A stretch of DNA of 64,000 nucleotides from the NCBI GenBank assembly GCA_018402455.1, contig JAGYIG010000005.1, positions 1 through 64,000 on the forward strand, in the 5' to 3' direction. This document shows, in pieces, positions 8,732 through 54,537 of the stretch; the stretch's first letter is position 1, and each line of letters begins with the position of its first letter. Under the pieces are notes generated by a model. It worked only from the letters and a program-made list of their open reading frames with translations. It ran no database searches and was not told where the DNA came from. The translations under genes were made by a program, and so were the position numbers. Source of the stretch: Opitutaceae bacterium (lineage in GTDB: Bacteria; Verrucomicrobiota; Verrucomicrobiia; Opitutales; Opitutaceae).

Positions 8732-9822
8732 GCAAAAAGTCCCCTCAACCCACCACCTCCCCCTGGGCTCGCCGGGCCAACTCCACCGTGCACGGTTATG
8801 GCCTCTACGCGGCCAAGGACATTCCCAAAGGCACGCGCGTGATCGAGTATGTGGGCGAAAAGATCTCCAAAGCGGAGTCCGACCGCCGCGACGAAGAGCG
8901 GCGCGCCCGGCAAGAAGCGGGGGACGATGGTTGCGTGTACCTCTTCGAGTTGAATGAGCGTTTCGACATCGACGGCGACGTGGCCTGGAACACCGCCCGG
9001 TTGATCAATCACTCCTGCGATCCCAATTGCGAAACGGAGTACGCGAAGGGTGGCATTTGGATCTCAGCGTTACGCGATATCGCGGCCGGAGAAGAGCTCA
9101 ACTACGACTACGGCTTTGATTGGGACAATTGGCAGGACCACCCCTGTCGCTGCGGGGCGCCGACCTGCTGCGGTTACATTTTGAAAAAGAGCCAACGCTG
9201 GCGGGTGCGGCGCGCCCTCGCTCAGGCCAAGGCGGAGAAGAAAGGCAAAACGGTTGAGGGTAAAAAGGCGGACTTCCTCACCGAGGCCAGCCCGTGGGCG
9301 CGGGTGAAGTGGGGGGACATCCTGCGGGTCAAAGCCCGCTGCACGACGGGCAGAAAGACCCCGCGCACGTTGGCCATCGCGGAGAGCCTGACCAGTGGGC
9401 AACTGCAGGCCCGCATCGGATTGGTATCCGGGGCATCCCGGTTTTTTCGCGGCGGCATCACCGCCTACACCCTCGATGCCAAGGTCAACCTGCTCGGCGT
9501 GAATCGGTCGGAGGCGAAGGCGTGCAACGCCGTGAGTCCGGCGATTGCCGAACAGATGGCCCGGGGAGTGGCCAAAACTCTGGGGGCGACGGTGGGGGTG
9601 GCTACGACGGGCTACGCTGAACCCGATCCGGATCATGGGGTCGAGACCCCGTATGCATTCTGGGCCATCGTGGTGAAGCCCCCGAGCTCCCGCGGGCGCT
9701 GGAAGGTGACCACCGGCAAAGTCACCGGGCGCAACCTCACCCGGGTGGCGATGCAGGTGAAGGTGGCCAACAAGGTCATGCGGGCCCTGATCGACGTGCT
9801 GGCCCCGGCTGGATCGAGGTGA
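8728..9822 (+). CDS. SET-domain lysine methyltransferase fused to CinA/PncC amidohydrolase-like domain
   Basis: A 364-residue two-domain protein. Residues about 15-150 are a SET domain: the N-terminal [20 protein letters not shown], the SAM-binding [10 protein letters not shown], the catalytic-type [11 protein letters not shown], and a cysteine-rich post-SET motif [10 protein letters not shown]. After a basic linker of about 50 residues comes a CinA C-terminal domain ([38 protein letters not shown]). CinA/PncC domains deamidate nicotinamide mononucleotide to recycle NAD. SET proteins methylate lysines using SAM. The frame is continuous and has no internal ATG before the CinA part, so this reads as one fused polypeptide. 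Start ATG 8728 overlaps the xth stop as ATGA. Why the activities are joined is unknown. Confidence 0.85.
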
Positions 9823-34970: not shown

Positions 34971-34990
34971 TTATAGGGACAGGTTAAAAA
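34971..34990 (+). repeat. RAYT-linked repeat, copy 1 (TTATAGGGACAGGTTAAAAA)
   Basis: The 20-mer is identical to that at 54427-54446, and its GGGACAGGTTA core is shared with copy 2 at 38022. It lies 45 bases before the transposase start. After it comes TAG-N11-ATCGGAAGA; copy 2 also carries ATCGGAAGA soon after its core. All three copies are in the same orientation. Confidence 0.85.
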
Positions 34991-35034
34991 TAGTTGCCTA
35001 GATCGGAAGATTTGGGTTGGGTGGTGGGGTGAGA

Positions 35035-36027
35035 ATGGCTCGGATCAAGGTGGATGCGGTAAAAGCGGCGGCGGTTTACCACGCGATGACGCGGACGGTG
35101 AACGGCGAGCACCTCCTGGACGATGTCGCCAAGGAAGTCCTGCGGAAGCAATTGTGGCAGATCGCCGACTATTGCGGTCTGGAAATCATTACCTACGCAG
35201 TCATGGCCAATCACTTCCATGTCCTCGTGCGGGTTCCGCGAAAGGAACCGATTTCCGATCGAGAATTGATTCGCAGATATCGTGTTCTCTACCCGAACCC
35301 CACCAAATACCAATCCGCGCAGTTCGAGGTGATTCAGTCGCAGCTTAAAGCCAATGGAGCAGAGGCCGTCGCCTGGCGGGAACGCCAGACGGCAATGATG
35401 GGAGATCTTTCTCCTTTCATGAAATTGGTGAAACAACGCTTTTCCGTGTGGTATAACCGGACCCATCAGCGTTTTGGCACCCTGTGGTCTGAGCGCTTTA
35501 AAAGTGTGTTGGTTCAGGCGAAATCTGGGGTGCTGCGCACGATGGCAGCTTATATCGATTTGAACCCCGTGCGGGCCGGCTTGGTCAACGATCCCAAAGA
35601 CTATCGGTTCTGTGGCTATGCGGAAGGGGTCGCTGGCTACCAACCGATTCAGCGGAGCCTGGCGCGATTGGTCGATAACGGAAAATCGCTCGGTTGGTCG
35701 CGGACGCATGACTCCTACCGGCAGACGCTCTTTGGCAAAGGTGCCGCGTCCCGAACCGATCGGTCGAGGATTGATCGTGCCGAACTCGAAAAAGTGCTCA
35801 AAGCAAAGGGGCGCTTGCCCCTCCATCGGGTGCTGCGTTGTCGGGTTCGCTATTTCAGTGATGGAGCAGTGCTCGGGGGCCACGCGTTTGTCCTCAAACA
35901 CCTCCGCACCTATCAAACCCTGACCGGGCGCCACAGCCGTACCGCGCCCCGCAAGATTCCCCGGATCACCGATTGGGAAGTGGACTTGTCCACCCTGAGG
36001 GGGCTGAGACGAACCGTCTTTGGATAG
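35035..36027 (+). CDS. REP-associated tyrosine transposase (RAYT, IS200/IS605-type Y1 HUH)
   Basis: A 330-residue Y1 transposase. The HUH metal site is His60/His62 in YAVMANHFHVLVR; the likely nucleophile is Tyr140 in RFSVWYNRTHQRFG; and TLWSERFKSVLV and YIDLNPVRAGLV are family hallmarks. RAYTs are domesticated single-strand transposases that mobilise or maintain short palindromic repeats without moving themselves. Start ATG 35035 after GGTGGGGTG. It sits just inside repeat copy 1. The following ligase gene is in the same orientation 101 bases on. The C-terminal third is basic and not assigned. Confidence 0.92.
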   Translation: MARIKVDAVKAAAVYHAMTRTVNGEHLLDDVAKEVLRKQLWQIADYCGLEIITYAVMANHFHVLVRVPRKEPISDRELIRRYRVLYPNPTKYQSAQFEVIQSQLKANGAEAVAWRERQTAMMGDLSPFMKLVKQRFSVWYNRTHQRFGTLWSERFKSVLVQAKSGVLRTMAAYIDLNPVRAGLVNDPKDYRFCGYAEGVAGYQPIQRSLARLVDNGKSLGWSRTHDSYRQTLFGKGAASRTDRSRIDRAELEKVLKAKGRLPLHRVLRCRVRYFSDGAVLGGHAFVLKHLRTYQTLTGRHSRTAPRKIPRITDWEVDLSTLRGLRRTVFG

Positions 36028-36128
36028 CCAGTATGCCCCCCCATCGGGAGTTTTTTCAGCCCTGAAAGAGGTCGATTTTAGGCGATGATTTTTGGAAGAT
36101 CCGAATAGAAGCCAGCGTTCTAGAGTCC

Positions 36129-37967
36129 ATGGAAATGCAACACTGGCATGTCTTGATCGGCCGATTTTCCGGGGTGATTGCCGGAATTTTTGGCCTGATA
36201 GTTTTGGTCACTTCGGAGGCATCAGCGTCGGAGTCGCTTGACCGAATTGAAGCGCTTCGCACCGAGATTGCGCGTCACGATGCGCTCTATTTTCAGGAGA
36301 ATGCTCCTGAAATCACGGACTACGAATATGATCTTTTGAAGCTTGAGTTGCGTAGGCTGGAAGCGGCGGCCGGTATACCGACTGAGCTCGATAGGGTGGG
36401 GGATGATCTCACGCGTGGGGCGGATCAGATCAGGCATACGGAGCCCATGCTCAGTTTGGACAAGGCTTACTCTGAAGCAGAGGTTGCGGACTTTTTTGAC
36501 CGGGTAGCGCGGATTGCCCCCGAGGGCGTCGTGAGCTTTTCGCTTGAGCCGAAATTTGATGGGGTCGCCGTGAATATGGTGATGGAGCGAGGTGAGTTGG
36601 TTTCGGCAGCCACTCGGGGTAACGGAGAGGTTGGCGAAGACATTACGGACCAGATTGAAGCGATCGAAGCCCTGCGCTATGAGTGGGAATTCGATGCGAC
36701 GCGTCCGCGCATCGAACGGATTGAGCTGCGGGGAGAAGTGTTTCTCCATGATTCCAGATTTGAGGAACTCAATGCGGCCAGGTCGTTGGCGGGTCAGGCG
36801 TTGTTCCGGCATCCTCGAAATGTGGCGGCCGGATCGGTTAAACTCACTGATCTCGCAGAAGTGGCTAGCCGGGGCCTTTCGATCGTCCTCCACGGATGGG
36901 GGGCGGTGCACCCGATTGAGGCAACCCCCCCATCAGTCATGGACTTTCAGCGCTGGCTGGAGCGAGTGGGGTTGCCTTCGGTTTGGCAGACCCGCTACGT
37001 GACCGTAGAAAATTCGGCCGAGCTCAACCACGCCGTAGAAGCTTATCGTGAGTCCTTTTCGGGCTACCCGACGGATGGTATGGTGATCAAGGTCGACTCT
37101 GGGGTTTTACAGAAAGAGTTGGGCCATGGACCGACAGCCCCGCGCTGGACTCTGGCGCGCAAGTTTCGACCGACGAGAGTGGAAACGGTCTTACGGAATA
37201 TCGTCTGGCAGGTGGGGCGGACCGGGATTCTGACTCCCGTTGCGGAGTTCGATCCGGTGACTTTGTCGGGATCCACCATTCGTCGAGCATCTTTGAGCCA
37301 TGCACTTGAGATTGAACGTCGCGATCTTCGATTGGGAGACGCAATTTGGGTGGAGAAGGCTGGAGAAATCATTCCTCAGATCGTCGGGGTCATTTCGCAC
37401 CAGCGTGAGGCGGATGCTGTTCCCTACGTGATCCCGGACACCTGTCCTGCCTGCGGGCATGAATTGCTCAAACGGTCAGAGGGCCGGGAGTTGCTTTGCG
37501 CAAATTTTAGGTGCCAGGAGCAGCGGATTAAACGGCTGCTGCACTTCGTCTCAAATGACGCTCTGCAAATCCAGGGAATTGGCCCGGCCATGGCTCGGCG
37601 GCTGATTCTGACGGATACGGTCGATGATCCGAGTGACCTCTACCATCTGACGACTGCTCAGCTGGTTGCCTTACCGGGCATAGGGGATAAGACGGCGCAG
37701 GACCTGTTGATTCGAATAGAGGCCAGTCGGGCAAGGCCGCTGGAACGATGGATTGTGGGACTGGGACTGCCGGGCGTCGGCAAGGGTGGAGCTAAGGCAC
37801 TGGCGGTTAAAATCGATGGGCTGCGTGATTTGCTCGACGAGCCGAGGCGATCAGTAGCGCTAGAGGATTTTAGTTCATCCACGGCAGAGGAACTAAGCGG
37901 TTATCTCGACCGGCGGGAAGTGCGCGAGATGATAGAGCGCCTCTCCGGTGCAGCTCGGGTCCCGTAG
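36129..37967 (+). CDS. NAD+-dependent DNA ligase, BRCT-less, with N-terminal signal sequence
   Basis: 612 residues. Domain Ia (YFQENAPEITDYEYDLLKLE, MLSLDKAY), the adenylation site Lys142 in LEPKFDGVAV, ATRGNGEVGEDIT, the nucleotidyltransferase motif FRHPRNVAAGS, the OB fold, a four-cysteine zinc finger (Cys439, 442, 457, 462) and helix-hairpin-helix repeats (IQGIGPAMARRL, LPGIGDKTAQDL) are all present. The BRCT domain of LigA is missing. Residues 11-33 form a hydrophobic segment ending ASA/SES, as in a Sec signal peptide; no ATG lies after it, though a TTG within the segment could start a cytosolic form. E. coli LigB likewise lacks BRCT and has a signal-like N-terminus. Base composition is less GC-rich than its neighbours, suggesting transfer. 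It lies between repeat copies 1 and 2. Confidence 0.88.
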   Translation: MEMQHWHVLIGRFSGVIAGIFGLIVLVTSEASASESLDRIEALRTEIARHDALYFQENAPEITDYEYDLLKLELRRLEAAAGIPTELDRVGDDLTRGADQIRHTEPMLSLDKAYSEAEVADFFDRVARIAPEGVVSFSLEPKFDGVAVNMVMERGELVSAATRGNGEVGEDITDQIEAIEALRYEWEFDATRPRIERIELRGEVFLHDSRFEELNAARSLAGQALFRHPRNVAAGSVKLTDLAEVASRGLSIVLHGWGAVHPIEATPPSVMDFQRWLERVGLPSVWQTRYVTVENSAELNHAVEAYRESFSGYPTDGMVIKVDSGVLQKELGHGPTAPRWTLARKFRPTRVETVLRNIVWQVGRTGILTPVAEFDPVTLSGSTIRRASLSHALEIERRDLRLGDAIWVEKAGEIIPQIVGVISHQREADAVPYVIPDTCPACGHELLKRSEGRELLCANFRCQEQRIKRLLHFVSNDALQIQGIGPAMARRLILTDTVDDPSDLYHLTTAQLVALPGIGDKTAQDLLIRIEASRARPLERWIVGLGLPGVGKGGAKALAVKIDGLRDLLDEPRRSVALEDFSSSTAEELSGYLDRREVREMIERLSGAARVP

Positions 37968-38021
37968 TCTTGCACCGTTGAGCCCCAAGTTCGGTGGAGG
38001 CTTAATTACATCCCAATCCAA

Positions 38022-38050
38022 AGGGACAGGTTATTAAAAAATCGGAAGAG
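38022..38050 (+). repeat. RAYT-linked repeat, copy 2
   Basis: AGGGACAGGTTA at 38022-38033, followed by TTAAAAAATCGGAAGAGG. It matches copy 1 in its core and again in ATCGGAAGA after a short gap. It lies 54 bases past the ligase stop, so copies 1 and 2 flank the transposase-ligase pair as direct repeats. Confidence 0.75.
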
Positions 38051-54426: not shown

Positions 54427-54446
54427 TTATAGGGACAGGTTAAAAA
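54427..54446 (+). repeat. RAYT-linked repeat, copy 3 (TTATAGGGACAGGTTAAAAA)
   Basis: Identical over 20 bases to copy 1 at 34971-34990, 19.5 kb away. It lies between the arsC start and the acid phosphatase gene with no transposase nearby, as expected for a dispersed non-autonomous repeat. Confidence 0.85.
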
Positions 54447-54537
54447 CAGGCAATCAAGGGCCGGCCGCAATCACGGGCAGTGCGGGGCTTCGCGTGGTGG
54501 GGATTGACGCGAAGGGCCGGGGGGATTGCGTGGGAGG

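Follow-up and report, generated by a model that had tools for sequence, protein, structure and literature searches.

The GGGACAG repeat analysed here, which is linear and hairpin-free, is probably the REP-like partner repeat of the TnpA subclass 2.3 transposases, relatives of the RAYTs, in a verrucomicrobial branch. It was identified in a window of 64,000 nucleotides from an Opitutaceae bacterium (contig JAGYIG010000005.1; genome G000), in which a RAYT gene is preceded by one copy of the repeat and followed by a DNA ligase gene and a second copy (Table 1). Judging from the sequences compared, the enzyme, with its intact catalytic residues, would act on the repeat, which occupies a leader position, co-occurs with the gene, varies with the transposase clade, lacks secondary structure and is associated with duplications on its left side only.

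Table 1. Features of the window discussed in the text.
Feature	Position	Strand	Remarks
Leader copy of the repeat, TATAGGGACAGGTTAAAAATA	34972..34992	+	Upstream of the RAYT; 59 bp from core start to RAYT ATG
RAYT-type transposase, 330 aa, subclass 2.3-like	35035..36027	+	Y1_Tnp match; ATG at 35035
BRCT-less NAD+ DNA ligase, signal-peptide-like N-terminus; judged a resident neighbour	36129..37967	+	Found without RAYT elsewhere
Solo repeat copy, between the ligase and the following, convergent gene	38019..38039	+	No counterpart in G101
Solo repeat copy	54428..54448	+	~105 bp upstream of next gene; 20 bases identical to leader copy

Assignment of the transposase

The gene beside the first repeat copy, taken for a RAYT in the first-pass annotation, is indeed of this type. 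Its product has an HuH motif (NHFH) at residue 59 and a catalytic tyrosine, Tyr173, within YIDLNP, so both the HuH motif and the class 2 Y motif (Y---NP) are present and the catalytic residues are intact. Subclass 2.3 proteins have been described as being ~325 amino acids long, with a large HuH-Y spacing due to an insertion, a Y[VI]DLNP motif and a long C-terminal tail, and as occurring in Chromatiales and Alteromonadales in several copies per genome (Quentin et al. 2018, PMC6006769). The HuH-Y spacing is 114 residues in the window RAYT and 113 in the gammaproteobacterial members (102 in one of them), versus 59-64 in the other Y1 genes; the window RAYT thus displays the subclass 2.3 trait of a spacing near 110 residues, through an insertion between β3 and αC. 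Its structural model consists of an HUH core with inserted helices at residues 75-121 (mean pLDDT 73.8), and in structure comparisons it best matched E. coli TnpA_REP (4er8 was matched), followed by the IS200/IS605 transposases. Profile comparison with the gammaproteobacterial members covered 295 columns at a probability of 99.8%, with a weakly aligned C-terminal part, as against ~134 columns for the 2.1-like genes. In the phylogenetic tree, which has a midpoint root and long branches, the verrucomicrobial RAYTs were sister to the gammaproteobacterial members (support 91/93). These traits fit a subclass 2.3-like enzyme, the assignment being based on the published traits rather than on the original subclass profile.

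The gene is under purifying selection (dN of 0.18, saturated dS). The genome of the window contains 14 Y1_Tnp matches, and its RAYT copies are 52-81% identical to that of the window. Two decayed copies were also observed, one interrupted by stops (C4:72612-73588) and one split (C6:13121-14073). No match to the window RAYT was found in the phages searched.

The repeat and its association with the transposase

A scan of the window for GGGACAGGTTA, allowing one mismatch (chance expectation 0.5), located the motif at 34976, 38023 and 54432, in each case on the + strand, in agreement with the three copies, of which the first and third have 20 bases in common, originally noted. The sequence ATCGGAAGA, reported near the first two copies, does occur there, but was rejected as a second conserved block, because the flank of copy 2, core excluded, aligned with the leader of copy 1 at the level of shuffled sequence (p about 0.2). 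Searching the genome (3.67 Mb, 100 contigs) yielded 12 copies of the repeat, versus one for the reversed control. Six copies immediately precede a complete or fragmentary RAYT (C4, C6, C44, C46, C51 and C68) and the remaining six are solo copies; one of the latter, C79:106237, does not show the consensus around the core and may be a chance match. Among 12 copies, 0.11 pairs no more than 3 kb apart are expected, so that the spacing of the two copies flanking the block is just mildly unusual.

The motif was found in forward orientation no more than 600 bp upstream of 23 of the 24 related RAYTs of the family, at a distance of 53-119 bp in 22 of them, whereas only 5 of the 4013 stretches of 100 bp used as controls contained it; it was not found in forward orientation at the other Y1 subclasses of these same genomes. 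A degenerate pattern matched 19 of the 25 genomes with a RAYT (best E below 1e-50) and 9 of the 75 genomes without one, with 142 and 10 copies, respectively (Fisher p=4.6e-9, an optimistic value because related genomes are not independent). Most of the RAYT-containing genomes have few copies, the upper end of the range being tens per genome, in clusters. The motif variant of a genome also matches the leader of its own RAYT (GGTC in G083, GGCTATTTAT in G042 and GGTTAAAAAT in G011), and leaders with GGCT[AG][AT]TTAT correspond to a single supported RAYT clade (L104-L108). The constant upstream place, together with co-occurrence at the genome level, upholds the view of the repeat as the partner of the RAYT. 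The exact 19-mer, scanned against 84,980 species, was recovered in 21 stretches, of which 18 came from records of Verrucomicrobiota or Victivallaceae, the other three being scattered; eight of the 21 also encode the RAYT. A link between GGGACAG and a transposase was not found in the literature searched, the coverage of which mostly excluded subscription papers. One locus is atypical: at L102 (G006), the motif occurs four times at 289-464 bp upstream, and three further copies, inverted, lie downstream; this genome has ten RAYT matches, yet the degenerate pattern finds no motif in it.

The repeat is a non-palindromic motif of 21 bp, with information confined to positions -4 to +16 around GGGACAG (103 copies). 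Single-strand folding revealed no excess of hairpins around it (z of -0.16, versus -0.15 for the control). Copies are frequently clustered in direct orientation, and the motif is often followed by a TTGACA-like hexamer. A rare inverted pair, ~40 bp apart and REPIN-like, was observed at L131 6945. Tandem duplication of the 12 bases directly adjoining the motif on its left was seen in 13 of 111 copies, as opposed to 1 of 111 for the right 12 bases and 305 of 29,204 for the control, and in 10 of the 13 cases the repeated unit does not include the full motif. Such left-only scars are consistent with breaks, strand transfer or single-strand processing at the 5' side of the motif; they could also have arisen by replication slippage. 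Left-only tandem duplications are seen at solo copies among L251-L286 (e.g. L281 229 and L280 598).

The constant spacing and orientation of the motif ahead of the gene, the TTGACA-like hexamer and the lack of a hairpin would also suit a role as operator or promoter element of the RAYT, or as the site of a host regulator, with the solo copies as ordinary immobile binding sites. We consider this explanation unlikely, since the copies are almost limited to RAYT-containing genomes, can number tens in a genome, where they form clusters, differ between RAYT clades and have one-sided flank duplications; an operator role may nonetheless be true alongside that of a repeat. Even less probable is the derivation of the solo copies from the leaders of decayed RAYT genes, with no independent spread of the repeat: decayed RAYTs do exist in this genome (on C4 and C6), but the solo copies resemble RAYT leaders over about 20 bp and no further, form tandem clusters and mostly have no RAYT remnant around them in tblastn searches of the loci.

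Under the preferred reading, that of a cognate repeat, each gene of the branch retains a single copy in forward orientation, in most cases 53-119 bp before the start codon, with gene-free copies dispersed elsewhere in the genome. The HUH transposase would recognise the motif on single-stranded DNA and cut it at the 5' side or close to it, and strand transfer or repair at the cut would spread the motif and duplicate its left flank. No empty site dating a solo insertion was found; when the synteny break at the motif was compared between G000 and its sister species G101, the upstream gene of G101 proved to lie on another G000 contig, with no motif or RAYT there.

The neighbouring ligase

The ligase, described as BRCT-less from the outset, is NAD+-dependent and gave no BRCT match. 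It scores above the LigA cut-offs but far under that for LigB (197 of 498 bits), and retains the four zinc cysteines. It shares the NAD+-dependent ligase core of bacterial LigA and E. coli LigB, and the lack of a BRCT domain with the latter, but is set apart by its scores and its signal-peptide-like start. This N-terminus was judged by eye, not by a predictor; the product is probably exported, and such a start argues against a joint function with a transposase located in the cytoplasm. In many genera of the family, LigA is likewise accompanied by a second NAD+ ligase without BRCT (L118, L119, L139-L160 and L187), with a signal-peptide-like start again judged by eye; export would be unusual for an NAD+ ligase.

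It had been proposed that repeat, RAYT and ligase form a single mobile unit between direct repeats, the single-strand transposase being accompanied on its moves by an enzyme that joins strands. The block is indeed flanked by direct copies, the ligase of G064 is also directly downstream of a (different) Y1 transposase, and the adjacency of ligase and RAYT, expected in related genomes, is retained in one sister species, G101, where the order of motif, RAYT (75% identity), ligase (57%), next gene and transporter is that of the window. However, the repeat after the ligase was not found in G101, in which the ligase ends at 8788 and the convergent next gene at 8804; left-hand nucleotide similarity between the two loci begins 9 bp before the motif. 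Furthermore, the ligase is present in G020 with no RAYT and no motif nearby, and for ~17 further ligases with a signal-peptide-like start, spread over many genera of the family, the ~4 kb inspected on each side contained no convincing Y1 transposase. The genome of the window has just two NAD+ ligases, LigA and that of the window, versus its 14 Y1_Tnp matches, and solo repeats have only ~20 bp in common with RAYT leaders. The ligase neighbourhood also shares a ribonucleotide-reductase-like gene and a DEAD-box helicase with G064, as expected of a resident gene, and the signal-peptide-like N-terminus likewise speaks against a joint unit. The two end repeats and the ligase were not found together at different sites.

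A mobile unit is, therefore, highly improbable, and the ligase was rejected as cargo on the basis of the RAYT-free ligase loci, the absence of the right repeat from G101 and the presence of only two ligases in the genome. We judge it to be a resident gene adjoining the RAYT by chance, and the repeat downstream from it is a separate solo copy. The RAYT-ligase pair (dN of 0.40 for the ligase, with dS saturated) is old in one branch, yet does not constitute a unit. The arrangement in G064, in which a 2.1-like transposase (L119 10680-11612) lies 65 bp upstream of the ligase orthologue on the same strand, is an odd coincidence, with a chance of about 6e-4 on a rough estimate.

Gammaproteobacterial members and known systems

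No REP-like sequences were found for subclasses 2.1 and 2.3 in the published survey, in which subclass 2.3 was among the larger subclasses and the automatic search targeted hairpin-bearing repeats (PMC6006769). We examined gammaproteobacterial 2.3 genes in plasmid-collection records of Pseudoalteromonas, Shewanella, Vibrio, Photobacterium and others. A GACA-core motif was present in forward orientation upstream of 13 of 15 genes and inverted downstream of 10 of 15, but inverted upstream of none of the 15; it occurred in 0 of 45 coding and 3 of 40 far-flank controls. The existence of GACA-core repeats in this group is suggestive only, because the pattern was derived from these same loci. It is conceivable, though we hold it at somewhat less than even, that subclass 2.3 in Verrucomicrobiota and Gammaproteobacteria as a whole represents an equivalent of the REP-RAYT system that works independently of hairpins, with recognition of a linear GACA core on single-stranded DNA, left-flank duplications and hairpin-free spread. 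A linear cognate repeat, if confirmed, would close the repeat gap left by the survey for subclass 2.3, would make one ask by what means such an HUH transposase locates its DNA without a hairpin, and would provide a ready substrate for biochemistry. Short non-palindromic repeats can, moreover, be linked to their own enzyme through clade-specific variants.

The window RAYT resembles subclass 2.3 (PMC6006769) in its length, HuH-Y insertion, Y[VI]DLNP motif, long C-terminal tail and several copies per genome, but belongs to a branch in Verrucomicrobiota, has NHFH as its HuH motif and possesses a clear associated repeat. It shares the HUH transposase superfamily with IS200/IS605, from which the system differs in having no subterminal hairpins or leader-motif structure and no near-identical full-length copies. 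The inverted REP pair that constitutes the mobile REPIN unit is not the arrangement seen here, copies being mostly direct, with one inverted pair. The motif also lacks the 5' GT[AG]G foot and hairpin of classical REPs; there is no GTAG-type tetranucleotide or palindrome, and copies number from few to tens. Nevertheless, as in classical REP systems, dispersed copies are tied to one RAYT type, and, as for E. coli TnpA_REP and Pseudomonas REPINs, a Y1 HUH enzyme lies beside a dispersed repeat, the variant of which is matched to the enzyme.
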